Below the pieces are notes generated by a model. It did no database searches. It worked only from the letters and a program-made list of their open reading frames with translations, and was not told where the DNA came from. From positions 1 to 40,684 of IMG/VR virus record IMGVR_UViG_3300036791_000469: a stretch of 40,684 nt of DNA. The stretch is one strand, 5' to 3'. The DNA is from a virus. Below, piece after piece: positions 7,313 through 15,905 of the stretch (the first letter of the stretch is position 1; each line of letters opens with the position of its first letter). A program made the position numbers and the translations under genes.

Positions 7313-7502
7313 GTCAAGGGTTTGCGATCCGCTGGTTAAAAGTGCCATTGATGCATTGGGCACACTGGAAGCTGCCGCCCAGGCGCTAAATGTATCAAAA
7401 TCATATCTTTACATGATTATTAAAGGCGACAGGCAACCGGGTAAGAAACTGCTGCAGGATCTAGGGCTATCGCGGGTGGAGTTAATTACTAGGGCACAAT
7501 GA
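7311..7502 (+). CDS. Small Cro/CI-type HTH regulator (63 aa)
   Basis: The protein is little more than one helix-turn-helix: a first helix, then TLEAAAQALNVSKSYLYMII as the turn-and-recognition unit, then KGDRQPGKKLLQDLGL, typical of small Cro-like or XRE phage repressors. It is divergent from the early operon and flanked by two similar inverted repeats, so it probably represses the early promoter and itself. It lacks a dimerisation or protease domain, so it is not a classical LexA-like CI. Confidence 0.75.
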   Translation: MSRVCDPLVKSAIDALGTLEAAAQALNVSKSYLYMIIKGDRQPGKKLLQDLGLSRVELITRAQ

Positions 7503-7512
7503 AGGGGGATTG

Positions 7513-7734
7513 ATGGATTTTACCGATTATGGGCTAGACAAGACTTATCCAACAGAGCAGCCGCAGATCGCAGGAATGGCGAACGCCCTACAGCGCAAGC
7601 CGAATCTGACAGAACGCCTGGAAATACAAATCAAAGATCTGGAAACGCGGCTGGCTAGACTCAAGGAAGCCCACGCAGAACTAAAAAAGAATCCTGGCAT
7701 CGAACACCTATTGAACCTGCTGCAGCGCATTTAA
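7513..7734 (+). CDS. Small coiled-coil protein (73 aa)
   Basis: The ATG at 7513 follows AAGGGGG. After a short N-terminus the protein is a coiled coil (LTERLEIQIKDLETRLARLK, heptad-spaced Leu/Ile) and ends in a second helix. Ten bases downstream of the HTH gene and in the same direction, it may be a cofactor or antagonist of the repressor. No family is recognised. Confidence 0.65.
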   Translation: MDFTDYGLDKTYPTEQPQIAGMANALQRKPNLTERLEIQIKDLETRLARLKEAHAELKKNPGIEHLLNLLQRI

Positions 7735-7753
7735 GCCGGCCGGAATTGGCGCA

Positions 7754-7936
7754 ATGAGCACTCTGGTAGCAATGTGGCTTTCAGCGAAGGATACCTGCAC
7801 CCTGCTGGAACTGTGGGCGCGCGCACGTAATAAAATGGAAGCAATGCAGGAAATAGATTGCTGTTCAGTGCCAGCGGAATTTGAAACACTGATTGAGTTT
7901 ATAGGGGAATTGCGAAGCGTGCAGGTGGTGCAGTGA
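7754..7936 (+). CDS. Hypothetical helical protein of the repressor operon (60 aa)
   Basis: Third gene of the short plus-strand operon. The protein is helical with a CC pair in the middle (EIDCCSVPAEFETLIEFIG). Its stop is separated by one base from the stop of the late minus-strand operon, so transcription of the two operons must collide here. I see no terminator hairpin with a T-run. Moderately supported. Confidence 0.5.
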   Translation: MSTLVAMWLSAKDTCTLLELWARARNKMEAMQEIDCCSVPAEFETLIEFIGELRSVQVVQ

Positions 7937-7937
7937 G

Positions 7938-8330
7938 TCAGCTTGCGGTAACAGGCTGCCAGATCTCAGCTAGTTCGGATTCAGCGGTGATCGGCTTGCC
8001 TAGCGCGTGGGCTACCCAGGAAGCTACAAAGTCTGCATAAGTGTCAGGTGCGTTGGAATCACTGGCAGGAGCATAAACATTCATCAGCGCTAAGAGCGTA
8101 GATTGCTGGGTAAGCCCATGATCGTTATGCCCTGAGAATTTAGCTTTCAGATCGGCCAGCAGATCCGCATAGCCAGTGATGAAATCTGGCTCAATGGTGT
8201 AGCCCTTATCATCCTTTGGCTTGTCAGACAGGCGCAGATTGCCAGGATTGCGGTTCTTATAACTGCGTGTGCCTGGCTTCCAACCTTCAAATTGCTGGAT
8301 CGCGTCTGCGACTGCTTCCAGCCCATTCAC
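7938..8330 (-). CDS. Peptidoglycan hydrolase / endolysin candidate (130 aa)
   Basis: The sequence AIQQFEGWKPGTRSYKNRNP followed by GNLR, then FITGYADLLADLKAK, VYAPASDSNAPDTYADFV, matches the small lysozyme-like domains of phage muramidases or transglycosylases in which an N-terminal Glu (here within FEGW) is catalytic. It has no signal peptide, so export would need the holin. Start GTG at 8330. It ends the late operon behind membrane proteins and a lipoprotein, as expected for an endolysin. Confidence 0.7.
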   Translation of the reverse strand: MNGLEAVADAIQQFEGWKPGTRSYKNRNPGNLRLSDKPKDDKGYTIEPDFITGYADLLADLKAKFSGHNDHGLTQQSTLLALMNVYAPASDSNAPDTYADFVASWVAHALGKPITAESELAEIWQPVTAS

Positions 8331-8332
8331 GG

Positions 8333-8524
8333 CTAATTCACGCCCAGCGAAGGCATGGCAATGCCGCGATTTTCACACAGGGTTTCGGCATTTTCATAGC
8401 CAAAATCCACAAGGAACTTCAGCCCATGATATTCCAGCATCAGGCAAGCCCTATCCTGCTCTGGCGTGGTGGGTAGGTTTAGCCGGTCGCGCCATTCGCC
8501 ATAGTAGCTGTCACCAATCTTCAT
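8333..8524 (-). CDS. Hypothetical lysis-region protein (63 aa)
   Basis: A soluble protein with PEQDRACLMLEYHGLKFLVD near the middle. The ATG has overlapping coupling with the upstream gene (8521-8524). Not recognised; the setting suggests a lysis or host-cell role. Confidence 0.58.
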   Translation of the reverse strand: MKIGDSYYGEWRDRLNLPTTPEQDRACLMLEYHGLKFLVDFGYENAETLCENRGIAMPSLGVN

Positions 8525-8715
8525 GGCGTAGGTGGCTGGGCCGCGGCATGGGCTGTGGCTACAATCTGCGCCAGGGTGGCGGAATCAGCCGCCAGCAGAT
8601 CTGCATCAGACTTGCCCTTTAAGCCGGCCACAAGTGCCTGAACCAAGCCAAATGCAATAGGCTCCAGTGCAGCAATATCACCTATTATCGCTACAGCGCC
8701 TGCCGCAGATGCCAT
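8521..8715 (-). CDS. Hydrophobic Ala-rich protein (64 aa)
   Basis: Ala/Leu/Ile-rich throughout, with a hydrophobic N-terminal half (AGAVAIIGDIAALEPIAFGL) and an Ala/Pro C-terminus. It may associate with the membrane, but charged residues inside make a clean span uncertain. One-base overlap with the lipoprotein gene. Confidence 0.58.
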   Translation of the reverse strand: MASAAGAVAIIGDIAALEPIAFGLVQALVAGLKGKSDADLLAADSATLAQIVATAHAAAQPPTP

Positions 8716-9146
8716 TAGGATGCTCCATTCAGTAGCGTAGCAACGTTGGCCAGCACTGCCTGCACCACTTGTAGCGCGGTTCTCAGTGCTGCCTGGCTTT
8801 GCAGATTCTTGATGGGAATTATGCCCGTATTTAACAGGGTTTGCACAGCCTGACCTACAGTAGCAAAGTTTTGCTGTACGGTGGCATTGTTGGCGCCGCT
8901 TTGCAGGGAACTGACTAGCACTTGCGCCGCTTGCGCAGCCTGGCCGATGGTCTTTTCTAACTTTTGATGCTCTGCGGCAGAGATCCGCCCAGCGTGGAAC
9001 TCCACCACTTCAGCCTGCTGGAACGATTGCAGACTAACAGTGAAGGTATGCTCAGCCACAACGGCATCGTGATAGCTTTTCGATGGACAGCCGCACAGCA
9101 ACACCACCAGCGCCAGAGCACCAAAGATTCGTCGCAACTTTATCAC
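8715..9146 (-). CDS. Lipoprotein of the lysis cassette, possible spanin (143 aa)
   Basis: A signal peptide with a lipobox (LLCGC, Cys about residue 19) predicts a lipid-anchored protein. The mature part is helical with Gln/Ala heptads. An outer-membrane lipoprotein beside holin-like and endolysin genes fits a spanin-type role, but no Rz partner is identified and it is longer than typical Rz1. GTG at 9146 has its ribosome site too close; TTG at 9137, preceded by AAAGGGTG, is an equally good start. Confidence 0.65.
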   Translation of the reverse strand: MIKLRRIFGALALVVLLCGCPSKSYHDAVVAEHTFTVSLQSFQQAEVVEFHAGRISAAEHQKLEKTIGQAAQAAQVLVSSLQSGANNATVQQNFATVGQAVQTLLNTGIIPIKNLQSQAALRTALQVVQAVLANVATLLNGAS

Positions 9147-9240
9147 CCTTTACTTTGCTGTGAGTACGCCTGTGGCCGATTAGCAGAAAGACGCAGAGTA
9201 GCCCAGCAAATTATCGTTCTGCAAGTCAATAATCAGAGAA

Positions 9241-9492
9241 ATGAAGAAAATGCTGTATTCTTCCTGGCCGAATCACATATATTCTGTGGATATGGATTGC
9301 CACACCCGATGCAATGTCTGCGGCGCAGGCAACTTGATTGAAATCCCTGCCGCGCGCAAAACCGTGATCCTGGCGCGCGAATGCGTGATCTGCGGCCACA
9401 TAGAACTGACCTGCGAAGCAGAGTCGCTTAGCAGAGCATCAGCCGGCGCAGGTCTACGCCTTTTACCAGCCTTTGACTCTGCTTGCAGATAG
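9241..9492 (+). CDS. Plus-strand zinc-ribbon protein (83 aa)
   Basis: This ORF runs against the late operon in the gap between the lipoprotein and the holin-like gene. It contains CNVCG and CVICG knuckles 26 residues apart, with flanking Cys residues, a good zinc ribbon, which is unlikely to arise by chance in an antisense frame. The ribosome site is weak (CAGAGA) and the start could instead be a later ATG (residue 18, MDCHTRC). No minus-strand gene convincingly fills this gap. Confidence 0.5.
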   Translation: MKKMLYSSWPNHIYSVDMDCHTRCNVCGAGNLIEIPAARKTVILARECVICGHIELTCEAESLSRASAGAGLRLLPAFDSACR

Positions 9493-9593: not shown

Positions 9594-9830
9594 TCAATAA
9601 AGCCCAAAAACATGCAGCAAGCCGATGAACAGAAACAGCATGAACACCCAATAAACGATTTGAATTGTGGTGCTGTCGGCGCCAAATTTCGTCATCACCA
9701 GTGATGCGATCTTCCAGACAATGCCCATGATACAAACGAAAATGACTAGCCCAATTAAAATGCCCAAAATGCCTTCAATGCCAAAGAATCCATAGTGGTG
9801 AGCGTAGACCTGCGCAAGCAAATTAAGCAT
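9594..9830 (-). CDS. Holin-like two-span membrane protein (78 aa)
   Basis: Preceded by a strong CCGGAGG site. Two long hydrophobic spans are clear: residues 18-45 (ILGILIGLVIFVCIMGIV) and 58-76 (IVYWVFMLFLFIGLLHVF), with a short polar loop between. Small two-span proteins next to the endolysin are typical class II holins. The family is not recognised by motif. Confidence 0.65.
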   Translation of the reverse strand: MLNLLAQVYAHHYGFFGIEGILGILIGLVIFVCIMGIVWKIASLVMTKFGADSTTIQIVYWVFMLFLFIGLLHVFGLY

Positions 9831-9841
9831 TTTTCCTCCGG

Positions 9842-10141
9842 TTAGGGCTTGGGTGGTGGTGGTTCTACGATAGAAATTGGATTCCCCACCTGGGCATTTA
9901 GGTGATTGACTGCTGGAATCCAGTTCGGGCTGGATTCAACCGCGGTGTTTTTTGCGCGACCCCAATTCGCTGCAAACTTGTTAGCGACCGTAAACCAGTA
10001 GCGATATTTCCCTGTGGATTGCGCTGTGGGTGCCGGTAGCGACGAAATGAACACATCGGCCACAAACTTTATGGTAGTTACGCTCACGCCGCTAACAGTG
10101 GCAGCAATCCAAGGATTCTTTAGCAATTCGGTAATGGTCAA
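9842..10141 (-). CDS. Lysis-region protein with N-terminal hydrophobic segment (99 aa)
   Basis: TTG start at 10141 with AAGGGG about ten bases upstream; no ATG lies nearby in frame. Residues 9-33 are moderately hydrophobic and could insert in the membrane. The remainder is polar (YRYWFTVANKFAANWGRAKN) and ends in a proline stretch. Possibly a second holin or antiholin-like component; uncertain. Confidence 0.6.
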   Translation of the reverse strand: MTITELLKNPWIAATVSGVSVTTIKFVADVFISSLPAPTAQSTGKYRYWFTVANKFAANWGRAKNTAVESSPNWIPAVNHLNAQVGNPISIVEPPPPKP

Positions 10142-10153
10142 AAGGATTTCCCC

Positions 10154-11539
10154 TTAAAAATGCGTTATTCCTGCTTGGAAACACTCAATCCAAGGCAGTC
10201 CGTTAGGGGCTATTTTGTTGTATAGGTGCGAATCCGTTGGATCCAGGCCCATGATCTGTTTGTATTGGTCTGCAATACCATCATGCTGTGACGATGGCCA
10301 AGGTGTGCCGGTAGGCACTGCTGGCGAACTGTATTGACCATTGAACAGTTGCCCTGAACCCATTGACTGGTATTGCGCGACCAGTCGCGCATCTACGGAA
10401 TCGCGGTTGCTGGTCCATGTGCCATCGCCTTGGATCCGCTGGGAATTGCCCACCGTTGGCAGCAAAACCCGATCCAAAGAGGTAATGTCAGCGGAAAGAT
10501 CTTGCGCAATGATGGGATATTCTTGCAATGGCAGCGGTGCAGGCTTATACCAACTGGCTGGTGGTGGGCCTAGTTCGGCTGTGCCTTCGCCATTCAGCTT
10601 GGCACACATCACGGTCTGATCGCCGGCTGGATCTTTCTGGTATTGGTCACTGTAGTTGCCCTGCAGATAGAAGGATCCTGGGCCGGGCATCTTTTGCGTA
10701 GTGTCATCGGTAGACTGCACTGGTGAGAAGCCATAGGGATGGGGATTGCTGTTGCCGTTGTTCAGATTCCCACGCACGTATTTATTTCCAATGATGTCCA
10801 TCACCACGCCACCTTGCGCCAACAGCGCAAAGTATTGCCAGTTATAGACTAGATTGGACACCCAACGGCCACGCTTGGTGTTGTACAGCGGGATGCGGTG
10901 GCCGATATTGATGTGGAAATTGTGATGAAAGTCTTGATCCACGCAATCTTCGGCCAGTGAGCTTGCATCGGTCATAAATGAAACTGGGTGGTTGACGTTT
11001 GGCTCAGCCATCAGGCAATTCTGCACGGTGGTGTTGGTAATCGGCTGGCCATTGGCGTAAGAAATAAAAGATTTGTTGCCCTGCCAGCGCATCGAACAGT
11101 GATCCAGAATCACGTTATTGATTAGGCCGCTGGCAAATTCAAAGCCTACGGTGCCGGTATCTGGGCCGGTGGGTGTGGGTGCGCTACCATCATAGGTTAG
11201 ATACCGCACTACCACATCATGCGTCGAAATAAACAGTGCTGCGCCGCTTTGACCCTTGCCACCTAGAACAATGCCGCCCATTGGCACGCTTTGCCCAAAG
11301 ATGGTGCAGAACGCATTGCCTAGCTGCAGGCGCGTTTTGTTGGTGATCAGCCCAGAAACGCGAAAAACAATATACCGCGGCCCTGATGCTTGGATTGCCG
11401 CGCGCAGAGATCCTGTGCCGGAATCATTTAGATTGGTGACTTCATACACCTTGGCAGAACTGCTTCGCCCCCCAACCGTTGCAGCGCCGGCGCCCATTGC
11501 GCCAGGAAACGCTGCCCCTTCTACGATTGGGGTTCCAGA
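10154..11539 (-). CDS. Pectate-lyase-like beta-helix tailspike domain, expressed by -1 shift (461 aa)
   Basis: The domain begins EGAAFPGAMGAGAATVGGR then VYEVTNLNDSGTGSLRAAIQ and YIVFRVSGLI, the standard N-terminal rung of PL1 pectate lyases and related right-handed beta-helices. Later parts have repeated helix turns (NNVILDHCSMRW, TNTTVQNCLM, GRWVSNLVYNW). The first ATG (11497) falls inside this conserved motif and has no close ribosome site. The frame is open upstream only to 11552, where it overlaps the end of the 140-aa gene at a slippery heptamer. The natural product is therefore probably a fusion with that gene, about 596 aa. Expected role: binding and cleaving host surface polysaccharide. 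Confidence 0.75.
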   Translation of the reverse strand, partial: SGTPIVEGAAFPGAMGAGAATVGGRSSSAKVYEVTNLNDSGTGSLRAAIQASGPRYIVFRVSGLITNKTRLQLGNAFCTIFGQSVPMGGIVLGGKGQSGAALFISTHDVVVRYLTYDGSAPTPTGPDTGTVGFEFASGLINNVILDHCSMRWQGNKSFISYANGQPITNTTVQNCLMAEPNVNHPVSFMTDASSLAEDCVDQDFHHNFHINIGHRIPLYNTKRGRWVSNLVYNWQYFALLAQGGVVMDIIGNKYVRGNLNNGNSNPHPYGFSPVQSTDDTTQKMPGPGSFYLQGNYSDQYQKDPAGDQTVMCAKLNGEGTAELGPPPASWYKPAPLPLQEYPIIAQDLSADITSLDRVLLPTVGNSQRIQGDGTWTSNRDSVDARLVAQYQSMGSGQLFNGQYSSPAVPTGTPWPSSQHDGIADQYKQIMGLDPTDSHLYNKIAPNGLPWIECFQAGITHF

Positions 11540-11943
11540 GGGTTTAGGTTGTCATCCCCTACATAGCCCAGGATGGCAGGAAACTGTAACTGCAGCCAAT
11601 TAAAGCCGCTGGATGCGGGAATGGGTGTAGTTTTGACTACGCCTGTGGTGTTGGCAGCTACCTGGCCGATGGCTGGCCCAGCGGATCCACCCGGCCCTGG
11701 CGCACCGCGCACCGTAGCCGCGGCGATCGTCACCGCCGAACTGCCTACAGGAAACTTATAGACAGGTGGCGGCACTACACCACTATCGGTAATGGTCAGT
11801 GTGGTGCCGGCCAGTACAGCATTGATACCGTTTTTAGTGCTGTCTACAATGGCCACAGGTACAGCAGGCGGCTGTACTGGCGCCGGCTGGATAGGTGGCG
11901 GCGTCACTGCAGAAACTGGAACGTGAATCGTGGAATTGCTCAT
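11521..11943 (-). CDS. Tailspike N-terminal adaptor, proline-rich (140 aa)
   Basis: ATG at 11943 with a GGAAAGGA ribosome site. Residues 10-30 are proline-rich (PPPIQPAPVQPPAVP). A short collagen-like GAPGPGGSAGPA stretch is followed by a beta-rich segment ending LQFPAILGYVGDD. It stops where the pectate-lyase domain opens in the -1 frame, so it is probably the virion-attachment part of a tailspike made in short and long forms. Confidence 0.68.
   Translation of the reverse strand: MSNSTIHVPVSAVTPPPIQPAPVQPPAVPVAIVDSTKNGINAVLAGTTLTITDSGVVPPPVYKFPVGSSAVTIAAATVRGAPGPGGSAGPAIGQVAANTTGVVKTTPIPASSGFNWLQLQFPAILGYVGDDNLNPLEPQS
11539..11545 (-). other. Candidate -1 ribosomal frameshift site (A AAC CCT)
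   Basis: In the frame of the upstream gene the bases read A-AAC-CCT, the X-XXY-YYZ form of a -1 slippery heptamer. After slippage both tRNAs re-pair on AAA and CCC and reading continues TCT GGA ACC into the pectate-lyase frame. Seven bases downstream CCCC (11532-11529) can pair with GGGG (11518-11515), a short possible stimulatory stem. The zero frame ends five codons later. Confidence 0.6.
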
Positions 11944-11958
11944 TTTGTTTTTCCTTTC

Positions 11959-13410
11959 CTACTGAACCATTGAAGGGATGGTGCCGGCTACCACCTGATT
12001 AGCCACGATAGCTGAGTTAGTGCCGTCTGAAAAGAACTGCGTGGTGTAAGCCGAACTAACCGTAATCGTTTGGTTGCCGGTAATATTAAATACGAAGGTT
12101 GCTGAAGCCCCGCTGGGATTCACAAACGGACAGGACCATGTACTATGCCCATCCACATTCTGGTTGCAGGATCCTGGCGACATCTTAGATCCAATCATCC
12201 ACGTTTGAATGGTGGCCAGCGCAGTAGCCACCGCGACACCTACGCCAGACCCGTTGCGAGTGCCAAAACAGCCAGACAGCGTGCCGCTTGGGCAAGACCA
12301 TTGATAATCCCACACACCCGCGGCGCCGCTATTCCATGCCATGATGTCAAACGATAAATCCCAAGCAATGCGCTGGTTGTCTGTCATGCCGCTATTGGCT
12401 GTGCCGGTGCCCCAATTCACTTCGGTGTAATAAACCGGCTTGGCGCTTAGCCCAAATGATGCAAATAGGCTTGCAGCGGCATTAAAGGATGCTTGCAAGC
12501 TGGCAACGGTGGGGCAATTCACTGGCGTGCCGCAGAAGGAATACGGATGCAGGCCAATGGCGTCCATGCTCGCCGCAGCGCCAGCTTGCTGCAAATATCC
12601 GCTGCCTGGCCCTGGCGTATTACCCGCTGCCGGCCCATATAGATGCGGCCCTGACGAATTGAACGTGCTGGCCGGTGGCCCAATCATAATAATCGTCGGA
12701 TCTGCTGTCTGTGCCGCTGTTTTGATCGTGGTGTTGTACTTCACCAGATCCGCCATTGTGCAGTTGGTGGTGAATGCCTGGTTGGCGCACTCATTAGCGA
12801 GATCGGCTTCGTTTAGCCCTTCAATAAAATTGCCATGAATGGTGGGATAGCGACTCACCCAATGGTTAACCAGCGCCGTGATGAAATTGGGCAGGGCTGT
12901 ATTCGTGGTGTTCAGGTCATTCGTTAGCTGCGCGCAGCCATTGGGATGATAGGTGCCATTACAGTTTGCTGGTGTCTGAATGTAAAAAGATGGTGTACGG
13001 CCGGCCACCCAGGACCATTTTCCGCTGTTCGCTGCAGCCAGATCCGTGAAGGTGTCACAGTTCGTGAAGTTGTAAACGCCTGCGCTTGTCTCAATCCCCG
13101 GCCAGGGACACGCCACTGTGCCGGCAACGTTCGTATCCCACAGCCGCATTACTGGAACGTTTATGGTGGGATTCTGCACGCCGCCTGTTTGGGTTTGCGT
13201 CATCCCAAAGAATGTAGCAGCCAGACCATTGTTCGGCAGCGCAATACAGCATTTGTTTTGCGCCAACACCTTGTGAGCGAATCTTCCAACATGGCTGGTG
13301 ATGCCGAATAGAAACAGCGCAGCCACAATGCTGGCAAGGGTGATGCCGAACCAAGGTAGGGCGCACAACACCAGGCGTCGAATCAATTCATTATCCAATA
13401 GGAAATGCAC
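11959..13410 (-). CDS. Clan GH-A-like glycoside hydrolase with N-terminal membrane anchor (483 aa)
   Basis: Residues 12-37 are one hydrophobic segment (signal anchor). The catalytic part looks like a TIM-barrel glycosidase: FIEGLNEADL carries the Asn-Glu acid/base pair (E201) and VYYTEVNWGTG the nucleophile Glu (E330). Order, spacing and strand context suit clan GH-A (GH5/GH39-like). A C-terminal beta domain follows (NPSGASATFVFNITGN). GTG at 13410 overlaps the previous gene by 28 nt; TTG at 13386, overlapping the stop as TTGA, is an alternative. Numbering is from the GTG. Expected to cut a polysaccharide outside the cytoplasm. Confidence 0.72.
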   Translation of the reverse strand: MHFLLDNELIRRLVLCALPWFGITLASIVAALFLFGITSHVGRFAHKVLAQNKCCIALPNNGLAATFFGMTQTQTGGVQNPTINVPVMRLWDTNVAGTVACPWPGIETSAGVYNFTNCDTFTDLAAANSGKWSWVAGRTPSFYIQTPANCNGTYHPNGCAQLTNDLNTTNTALPNFITALVNHWVSRYPTIHGNFIEGLNEADLANECANQAFTTNCTMADLVKYNTTIKTAAQTADPTIIMIGPPASTFNSSGPHLYGPAAGNTPGPGSGYLQQAGAAASMDAIGLHPYSFCGTPVNCPTVASLQASFNAAASLFASFGLSAKPVYYTEVNWGTGTANSGMTDNQRIAWDLSFDIMAWNSGAAGVWDYQWSCPSGTLSGCFGTRNGSGVGVAVATALATIQTWMIGSKMSPGSCNQNVDGHSTWSCPFVNPSGASATFVFNITGNQTITVSSAYTTQFFSDGTNSAIVANQVVAGTIPSMVQ

Positions 13411-14543
13411 AGCGCGTTTGTAGTGGGTGCAGCGTCAACGGTGATTGTAAAGCTGGTTCCTGCCGTGCGCGCAGTTACCCGCGGCGTTCCAAGCACAAGC
13501 GTGGATTGGGTGTTACACGTAATGGCTAATGCTGTTCCCAGCGAGTCATCCCGCTGCAGAATAACTTCGCTGTTGGCTGTAACTTTGGTGGTATTCACCA
13601 CTAGCGTAGTGCCGGCTGCAGCCAGCGCTACTCTGCCAGCCACGTTTGCGCCGCAAGCTGCTGGCGATACAGACTGCAGGCAATTGGTTGCTGTAGTGTA
13701 TTGCCCAGAAGAAAAAATACCGTTTGCGTTGGTGCCGCCACCATCACACGCGGCTATGGTTGCGGTCGCGCCATCGAAACAAAACGCTGGATTAAGCACC
13801 GCCTCTGTGCCGAACGTAAAGCGGGTGATTCCGTTTGAGCCATTCGCATTGGTATTGGCTGCAACGCGGCCATCTACCGCAGAACGAAACTGCGTTCGCG
13901 CATTCATGCCAATGGCGCTGCCGCCTGCAGCTTCAATGGATCCAGCCGAAGTTACGCCACCTGTTGCGCTAACGTTAAAGACTGTGGCGCCGCCATTGAC
14001 CGCGCGGAAATCAATGTAATTCCCGGTAAAGCCGGTGCAGCCATTTCCACCAATCAGCGTGCCGTTAGTGTTCCAAGCAGTTGGTGCTGTGGCGCCGGTA
14101 CAGTTGTAGTACCACAGTGGGACAGTGTTGGTGCCTGTGCCACCTGAAATGATGGTGCCGCTGAGCGTGTAAGCTGGCGCACTCAGCGCACCATTAACGC
14201 TGTTGCCGATGACCTGGCCGGTGGTCCATACGCCAGTAGATTGCGTGTAGCCGGTCACAAACGTGTTAGCAACAGGGGTCAATGTAAGGGGCGCAGGGGA
14301 AAGCCCGATCACGGAGAATGTTACGGTGCCAGCGCCATTGTCTACGATAGAAAGATTGGTAGTGCCGGCAAAATTCAGCAGCGTTTGCGACCCATTCGGC
14401 GTGCCATTGGTCTGAAGCGTAAGAGATCCGCCACCACCACCGCTGCCAGTGGCTGGGCTGCTGTAGCCGCCTGCAGGCGTCTGGGCCTGTAAGCCGGCAG
14501 CCGATAGTAAGAGGAAAGCTATCGTCAATAGTTTCTTCATCAT
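13383..14543 (-). CDS. Secreted or tail-fibre-like protein with signal peptide (386 aa)
   Basis: Residues 1-20 (MMKKLLTIAFLLLSAAGLQA) are a clear Sec signal peptide. The rest is rich in Gly, Thr, Ala, Asn and Val in repeated beta-strand style (SGTIISGGTGTNTVPLWYYN; TVFNVSATGGVTSAGSIEAA), similar to phage fibre or bacterial adhesin stalks. The start overlaps the upstream stop as ATGA. A signal peptide is unexpected in a virion fibre, so either the protein is exported or the N-terminus was borrowed from a host surface gene. Confidence 0.65.
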   Translation of the reverse strand: MMKKLLTIAFLLLSAAGLQAQTPAGGYSSPATGSGGGGGSLTLQTNGTPNGSQTLLNFAGTTNLSIVDNGAGTVTFSVIGLSPAPLTLTPVANTFVTGYTQSTGVWTTGQVIGNSVNGALSAPAYTLSGTIISGGTGTNTVPLWYYNCTGATAPTAWNTNGTLIGGNGCTGFTGNYIDFRAVNGGATVFNVSATGGVTSAGSIEAAGGSAIGMNARTQFRSAVDGRVAANTNANGSNGITRFTFGTEAVLNPAFCFDGATATIAACDGGGTNANGIFSSGQYTTATNCLQSVSPAACGANVAGRVALAAAGTTLVVNTTKVTANSEVILQRDDSLGTALAITCNTQSTLVLGTPRVTARTAGTSFTITVDAAPTTNALCISYWIMN

Positions 14544-15001
14544 CCCCCCGTCACAATGGCAGTCACAGAAACAGAATTAGTGCGCGACCGCATCAGCAAC
14601 CGCACAAACTTGGCATTGACCAGCACCGCATCTAGGTGCGCGGTGTTGTTTGTGGCGTCAAATGTGGTGATGTTGCAGTTGGAACACGTCTGGTAATTCG
14701 TGTCGCTATCCTGCGCTGCAACCTGCACATCCACTTCGCTAACTCCTGGCGCACCACTGAATTTGATGTCTACGCTGAAGGGTGTGCCAGACTTCTGGCC
14801 AGTATTGCTCAGTGCCAATTGCTGGCTGGCTGCGGTGGTTCCATTGCCAGGCGTAGGTGTTTCGTTGGTCCAAACATTGATGGGCTGGCCAGTAACCGCA
14901 ACTGGCGCGGGTGTGGTGGCGTTGTATACCGGCATGGCCAGCGAATTGGTGGCCACCAGCAAAACGAACAAAACTGCTAAAAACTGTCGAAATCGAATCA
15001 T
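14540..15001 (-). CDS. Secreted beta-rich protein with signal peptide (153 aa)
   Basis: The ATG at 15001 follows AAAGGGGC at good spacing; an earlier TTG at 15022 lacks a site. Residues 1-22 form a Sec signal peptide ending NSLAMP. The mature part is beta-rich with a CSNC motif near residue 115 that may form a disulfide, and a C-terminal RSRTNSVSVTAIVTGG strand. Coupled to the next gene by ATGA. Family not recognised. Confidence 0.65.
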   Translation of the reverse strand: MIRFRQFLAVLFVLLVATNSLAMPVYNATTPAPVAVTGQPINVWTNETPTPGNGTTAASQQLALSNTGQKSGTPFSVDIKFSGAPGVSEVDVQVAAQDSDTNYQTCSNCNITTFDATNNTAHLDAVLVNAKFVRLLMRSRTNSVSVTAIVTGG

Positions 15002-15014
15002 TTTGCGCCCCTTT

Positions 15015-15905
15015 TTAAGCAATAAACTCGAAAATGACTAGGCCACCGCTACCATTGCCGCCAGCACGGTTTGCGCCGGATGATGCGCCACCACCACCTG
15101 AGCCAAAGCCTGTAGCTGTGTTGCCAGCAAAGCCGCCAGCGCCGGCGCCACCACCACCACCGCCATACAGTGAACTGGTGCCGCCACCACCCACGCCAGC
15201 GGTGGCCAGACCCGATCCACCACCAGCACCATTGACCGTGCCACCTGTTGCTGCTGCGGTTTGCGCTGCGCCGGCTGACGTTGCGGCCACCGAAAAACCG
15301 CCATTGCCGCCTGGCGCGCTGATGTTTACGCCTGTCCCCACCACAGTGGTGGCGTTGCCAGGATTGCCAGTGCCGGCACTCACGCCATTGCCGCCAGGGC
15401 CGATGCTGACGGTATAGGTGTCCCCTGGATTCAGCCCAGTAGCCCACAGAATGGCTACCGCGCCGCTGCCACCACCTGAGCCATTGTTTGTCGCTGAACT
15501 GCCGCCACCTGCACCACCACCACCCAAGGCTGTGATCTTCGCGCCTGTTACGGTGCTGGGTACTGTAAACGTGCCGCCCAAGGTGAATGCCTGGGCTTGT
15601 GGTGTGAAGGGCGGATTGCCTGTAAACGGTGCCACCACATCGTCAATGGTTTCAATGGTGCCGCCACCAGAGTCTTCAATGACGAAATCGTAGGCAGTAT
15701 TCTGGATCAGCCAAATCGATGCCACGCCACTGGCATCCAGAATGACCGGGTTGGAGTTGGGTGTAGCGCCAGTTGCGTCTGTGTATGTGACCAGCGGTGT
15801 GGATGTGCCGGCCTGGAATGTGAAGACTTGCCCACCATTCAGCGGCGCACCAATGGCGCTAAAGAATTGCTGGCGAACAAAGGGCGCAAGATTGACTACC
15901 GGCAT
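15015..15905 (-). CDS. Glycine-rich tail fibre / adhesin (296 aa)
   Basis: Residues 1-75 match the virion-attachment region of many podovirus fibres (FFSAIGAPLNGGQVFTFQAG followed by TSTPLVTYTDATGA and VILDASGVASIWL). From about residue 125 the protein is a long run of Gly-Gly-Gly and Gly-Ala/Ser-Gly motifs, like the polyglycine-helix adhesins of some myoviruses. It ends with a hydrophobic strand GLVIFEFIA. The ATG follows AGAGG. Likely the primary receptor-binding fibre. Confidence 0.78.
   Translation of the reverse strand: MPVVNLAPFVRQQFFSAIGAPLNGGQVFTFQAGTSTPLVTYTDATGATPNSNPVILDASGVASIWLIQNTAYDFVIEDSGGGTIETIDDVVAPFTGNPPFTPQAQAFTLGGTFTVPSTVTGAKITALGGGGAGGGSSATNNGSGGGSGAVAILWATGLNPGDTYTVSIGPGGNGVSAGTGNPGNATTVVGTGVNISAPGGNGGFSVAATSAGAAQTAAATGGTVNGAGGGSGLATAGVGGGGTSSLYGGGGGGAGAGGFAGNTATGFGSGGGGASSGANRAGGNGSGGLVIFEFIA

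Follow-up and report, generated by a model that had tools for sequence, protein, structure and literature searches.

A phage pectate lyase gene divided between two overlapping frames: a probable broken fusion gene and a possible frameshift site

In phages, programmed frameshifts equip coat and tail-tube proteins with C-terminal Ig-like and FN3 domains (PMC5009743, PMC8718954). According to a review of phage recoding, whether an Ig-like domain is encoded in frame or expressed by frameshifting is apparently a chance of recombination (PMC5009743). Classical slippery heptamers of the form X XXY YYZ have A or U as Y, and phage sites with any nucleotide have also been reported (PMC10885494). Frame breaks known from a single sequence were considered likely sequencing errors or indels in the GeneTack survey of prokaryotic genomes (PMC3711429). 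The locus described here is a pectate lyase gene for which a first-pass annotation proposed a programmed -1 shift, a mechanism that it regarded as known for tail assembly chaperones but not, as far as it knew, for depolymerase spikes; given the Ig-like and FN3 extensions of coat and tail-tube proteins, a restriction to tail assembly chaperones is too narrow.

The stretch of DNA that was analysed, hereafter the window, comprises 40,684 nucleotides of the IMG/VR virus record IMGVR_UViG_3300036791_000469. It belongs to a podovirus and encodes a P22-like portal, coat protein, large terminase and Hc3 head-closure protein; distant relatives were obtained by tblastn. The lyase locus sits in the tail/lysis region, between fibre-like genes (13383-15905) and an endolysin-like gene (7938-8330). 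Adjoining the lyase, the minus-strand ORF 11959-13410 resembles glycoside hydrolases (Pfam GH44, E 3.7e-5; GH39, E 1.2e-3; both under the curated cut-off), and, judging by these similarities, two polysaccharide-degrading enzymes of different kinds may be encoded next to each other in this phage. Two tail-region proteins encoded on the minus strand at 13383-14543 and 14540-15022 have signal-peptide-like N termini, export signals being unusual in putative tail proteins, and the former contains a C-terminal K1-lyase_C domain (Pfam PF24146, 27.1 bits; cut-off 27). Near the start of the window, the minus-strand gene 500-1384 displays weak radical-SAM similarity (E 2.6e-3, under the cut-off).

Two frames of one lyase locus

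The features of the locus are collected in the table. The two ORFs overlap, with the second in the -1 register, as a -1 frameshift site requires. There is not a single ATG, GTG or TTG in the lyase frame ahead of the ATG at 11497, so that this part of the initial description stands: the frame has no start of its own before that codon, the adaptor ORF lies upstream and the conserved PL1 start, AFPGA, is located 5' of the first start codon. The predicted product sizes, a 140-aa adaptor and a 596-aa form shifted at A AAC CCT, also agree with the recomputed coordinates (135 + 461).

Table. Features of the lyase locus, in window coordinates
Feature	Position	Strand	Description
Upstream ORF ('adaptor')	11943..11521	minus	ATG start, 140 aa; N-terminal domain MSNSTIHVPV...IVDSTKNGINAVLAGTTLTI followed by a Pro-rich/linker region
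SD-like AGGGG	11556..11560	minus	10 nt 5' of the heptamer; predicted anti-SD pairing
Lyase open frame	11551..10154	minus	465 codons, -1 relative to the adaptor; PL1-type pectate lyase
Overlap (frameshift box)	11521-11551	minus	31 nt; any frame change must fall here
Heptamer A AAC CCT	11545-11539	minus	in frame
Stem-loop	11532-11470	minus	begins 6 nt 3' of the heptamer; by folding
Adaptor stop TAG	11521-11523	minus	
First start codon (ATG) of the lyase frame	11497-11495	minus	within the conserved AFPGAMGAG motif; located in the stem-loop's apical loop and lacking a usable Shine-Dalgarno sequence

The lyase frame matches PHROG 27797 'pectate lyase' (E 2.6e-25) and PDB entry 9buj (E 1.7e-11). A structure model built from four sequences was useless, whereas an alignment of 44 sequences gave a good AlphaFold model, with a mean pLDDT of 91; its nearest folds are 9buj, the best match (Foldseek E 8e-18, TMt 0.69), and other pectate lyases. 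By sequence and modelled fold, the frame encodes an enzyme of polysaccharide lyase family 1 (PL1) with predicted lyase activity towards pectate or a different uronate polymer. Across the 44 aligned sequences residue F15 never varies, and A14, P16 and A18 hardly do; all of these residues lie upstream of the ATG (M19). Residues 11-20 of the frame are modelled confidently (mean pLDDT 92). As judged from the alignment, starting at the sole ATG would deprive the lyase fold of its earliest conserved residues.

This bears on the possibility that the locus makes two separate proteins, with the lyase started at ATG 11497 either independently or by coupling after the adaptor stop. The ATG is only 24 nt past that stop, and termination-reinitiation over distances such as this exists. 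Nevertheless, we consider internal initiation improbable because the codon has no SD sequence (-1.5 kcal/mol), its surroundings are the most structured start region tested (-39.5 kcal/mol versus -6.5 to -25.5 kcal/mol) with the ATG itself in an apical loop, and the product would lose A14-A18, including the invariant F15, from a confidently modelled part of the fold. Every other PL1 examined starts upstream of the motif.

For the 140-aa adaptor, no virion-anchor domain was detected by Pfam or PHROG matching. Its N terminus has no signal-peptide-like stretch, unlike those of several free phage PL1s. The gene position and the absent signal peptide are what suggest the name 'tailspike' for this putative virion protein; to our knowledge, PL1 enzymes are not classical trimeric spikes. 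The adaptor-lyase protein is probably virion-borne and would open the polysaccharide coat of the host.

An unbroken relative and the frequency of broken lyase genes

Scanning viral contigs with the lyase as a single protein recovered no relative, and scans with the PL1 alignment yielded about 50 viral and about 80 bacterial loci. The closest relative found is L010 (IMGVR_UViG_3300031753_000011), with 52% identity in the lyase. There, positions 7464-9296 form a single unbroken ORF of 610 aa, consisting of an adaptor-like N terminus (MSNSTVNVPV...IVDTTKNGIKATLSGTTLTI), a proline-rich linker and the lyase. The N terminus is 66% identical to that of the window adaptor over the aligned first 61 aa. 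The order of N-terminal domain, linker and PL1 lyase is the same in both phages, but in L010 all three are in one frame. Since the two-part protein exists as a fusion in L010, its straightforward form is one gene. The endolysin-like and HNH-type genes of the window also have counterparts in L010 (62% and 58%, respectively), whereas no homologue of the P22-like Hc3 protein was detected there. With spike, endolysin-like and HNH-type genes in common, the two phages would appear to have exchanged host-contact and lysis modules. Searches with the adaptor alone found no homologue in viral contigs or phages, and none in a sample of 396 genomes of the phylum Acidobacteriota; a search with a two-row adaptor alignment recovered the L010 record again and nothing else. 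Conservation of the site in relatives, put forward initially as a check, did not materialize, as the sole adaptor homologue found is in frame and shares neither the -1 register nor the site.

The next relatives of the lyase (L139, L140, L141 and L011) have other N termini, several of them signal-peptide-like, and their start codon is always upstream of the motif. Signal-peptide-like N termini are frequent among the PL1 lyases of viral contigs (L013 and the four just named), which suggests from sequence that such enzymes may be exported from the infected cell rather than being parts of the virion. Across viral and bacterial loci, all 127 other recognisable PL1 start motifs have an in-frame ATG, GTG or TTG upstream, the window being the only exception. 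The break in front of the lyase is thus unique among the PL1 loci examined. One of 133 other loci, from an Opitutaceae MAG (L103:9458-10740), has a PL1 gene clearly split between two frames inside the lyase, likely through an assembly lesion or a real one, and gives a rough base rate for lesions in such genes. A degenerate DNA pattern retrieved no second record spanning the window junction among the other records of the collection. Consequently, the break is a singleton: it is known from one contig and no relative shares it.

We infer that the break is a lesion or an error, and a one-letter slip is the likeliest explanation because the closest relative carries both halves as an unbroken gene. 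The ancestor would have been a single in-frame fusion, in which a linker joined an N-terminal domain lacking a signal peptide to a PL1 pectate-lyase beta-helix. In this contig a one-base frame difference interrupts the gene in the linker, most likely because an error arose during sequencing or assembly or because the phage recently acquired a real indel. We hold this account to be the probable one, with moderate confidence. It is supported by the relative with an unbroken gene, by the confinement of the break to one sequence, by the unfavourable type of the heptamer and by the occurrence of such breaks in other public assemblies. Against it stand the position of the break in an inter-domain linker, the shortness of the box and the joint presence of a heptamer, an SD-like element and a strong stem-loop. 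Furthermore, the lyase frame is otherwise intact over its 465 codons, comparison with L002 and other relatives, where these permit it, brought up no further break in the window, and a codon-usage scan of the window revealed no clear additional frame break. The intact remainder of the lyase frame and the lack of another break relative to relatives indicate that the contig is not generally error-ridden.

A variant in which the break is an inactivating mutation of long standing, or an indel that switches the gene on and off reversibly, and is tolerated since the phage can do without the enzyme on its present host, appears very unlikely to us. Phage depolymerases can be host-specific accessories, and the short runs AAA, CCC and CCCC in the box beside a hairpin provide a slippage-prone context. 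However, the long homopolymers or tandem repeats that serve phase variation are missing, and the intact remainder of the lyase frame also argues against this variant. If the break is a lesion or an error, the locus counsels caution: recoding should be claimed for recoded-looking genes of metagenomic phages only once a relative, reads and a base rate are at hand.

Recoding signals in the overlap

Programmed -1 ribosomal frameshifting at A AAC CCT, helped by the upstream AGGGG and the downstream stem-loop, is a possible but doubtful reading of the same locus. Most ribosomes would stop at the TAG and release the adaptor, while a minority would continue into the adaptor-lyase, thereby setting the share of enzyme-bearing appendages. 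Both this grading and the one given to the broken fusion are judgements, not computed posteriors. The break coincides with a domain boundary, and the three signals follow one another in a dnaX-like order.

The in-frame heptamer is present in the 31-nt box, where any in-frame XXXYYYZ is expected by chance in 2-4% of cases. It had been called canonical, but with Y=C it lies outside the classical consensus. In a systematic study in E. coli, CCN codons and motifs with mixed X/Z shifted poorly, and A_AAC_CCA stayed below threshold even with the IS3 pseudoknot (PMC4066793). A AAC CCT combines both unfavourable properties, having a CCN A-site codon and a mixed purine/pyrimidine X/Z, and is absent from the 21 motifs picked for the E. 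coli genome search in that study (PMC4066793). In its favour, re-pairing of CCU to CCC in the A site is of the cognate kind that bacteria prefer, and in E. coli the tetramer C_CCU does shift when accompanied by a pseudoknot (PMC4066793). Transcriptional slippage was dismissed, as no run in the box exceeds four bases.

Both types of stimulator are present, an SD-like element upstream and a structure shortly downstream. The predicted anti-SD pairing of AGGGG, at its 10-nt spacing, amounts to -8.3 kcal/mol, a value equalled by 5% of same-phase coding positions. The short GC stem originally proposed after the heptamer (CCCC/GGGG) is no better on its own than shuffled sequences and was discarded as a stimulator; what remains of the proposal is the larger stem-loop, whose 10-bp basal stem CCCCAAUCGU/ACGGUUGGGG encloses a GC hairpin. 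In strength it ranks fourth among the sites of the strand. Over 99 nt it folds with -43 kcal/mol (z -2.1). Over 75 nt the z-score is -3.8, a value reached by 0.6% of the phage's coding windows and by one of 127 homologous PL1 positions (the other 99.4% and 126, respectively, fall short of it), whereas over 60 nt it is just -1.1 to -1.6. When protein and phage codon usage are kept fixed, an equally stable fold arises in 5% of random synonymous sequences (p ~0.05); much of the stability thus stems from the Gly/Ala-rich motif, which forces a GC-rich RNA. No match was found in an Rfam search of 9800-12400.

As a null, uniform one-base deletions were simulated in the genes of this phage (n=5,932). 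A box of at most 31 nt resulted in 8.6% of simulated deletions. A heptamer fell within the box, usually a longer one than that of the window, in 15%, and a heptamer with a comparable SD-like element occurred in 1.6%. The combination of a heptamer with a comparable structure was not reproduced once (0/5,932). The last figure overstates the case for programming because the threshold for structure was chosen with the site already known, but the case does not vanish.

The proposal of a programmed -1 shift producing an adaptor-lyase therefore holds up in part: the anatomy, the SD-like element and a stem-loop placed as in dnaX speak for it, and the in-frame relative, the weak heptamer and the single sequence of this phage speak against it. 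The plain fusion in L010 does not by itself exclude programming, since modular C-terminal domains such as the Ig-like ones are in frame in some phages and expressed by frameshifting in others (PMC5009743). Programming stays a live minority reading, and the signals around the break that point to purposeful ribosome slippage warrant testing at the bench. If the shift is programmed, a depolymerase would be dosed by ribosomal frameshifting, the known frameshift-expressed domains, which are passive carbohydrate binders (Ig-like, FN3), would be joined by an active enzyme, and why a phage should carry mostly unarmed appendages would become a testable question.

Relation to known lyases and recoding systems

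The window lyase shares the parallel beta-helix fold with PL1 pectate lyases (PfPL1, PDB 9buj; VexL, 6fi2; PHROG 27797), as well as the AFPGAxGxGA...GGR start, DHCS and the Arg219 region. Those lyases begin upstream of the motif, and many carry a signal peptide, whereas the frame of the window copy has no start there. The dnaX-type signal and the window locus have the same layout, with an SD-like element about 10 nt upstream of a slippery heptamer and a stem-loop shortly downstream (compare PMC3711429, Fig. 1). However, the slippery site of dnaX is A AAA AAG and that of the window A AAC CCT, the latter known from one sequence. A dnaX-like cassette (AGGGG, A AAC CCT and a long stem-loop) placing a pectate lyase on a minority of copies of an otherwise enzyme-free appendage protein, with a relative in which the fusion is constant, would be a tentative interpretation of this resemblance. 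The Ig-like extensions of T3 and A2, SPP1 gp17.1* and T7 gp10B are minority, C-terminally extended forms of structural proteins, produced when ribosomes change frame close to where the first ORF ends (PMC5009743, PMC8718954). The window product would match them, including in its carbohydrate-active domain. The extensions of T3, A2, SPP1 and T7 are carried by coat or tail-tube proteins and are experimentally supported, whereas in the window a predicted enzyme would be carried by a putative fibre.
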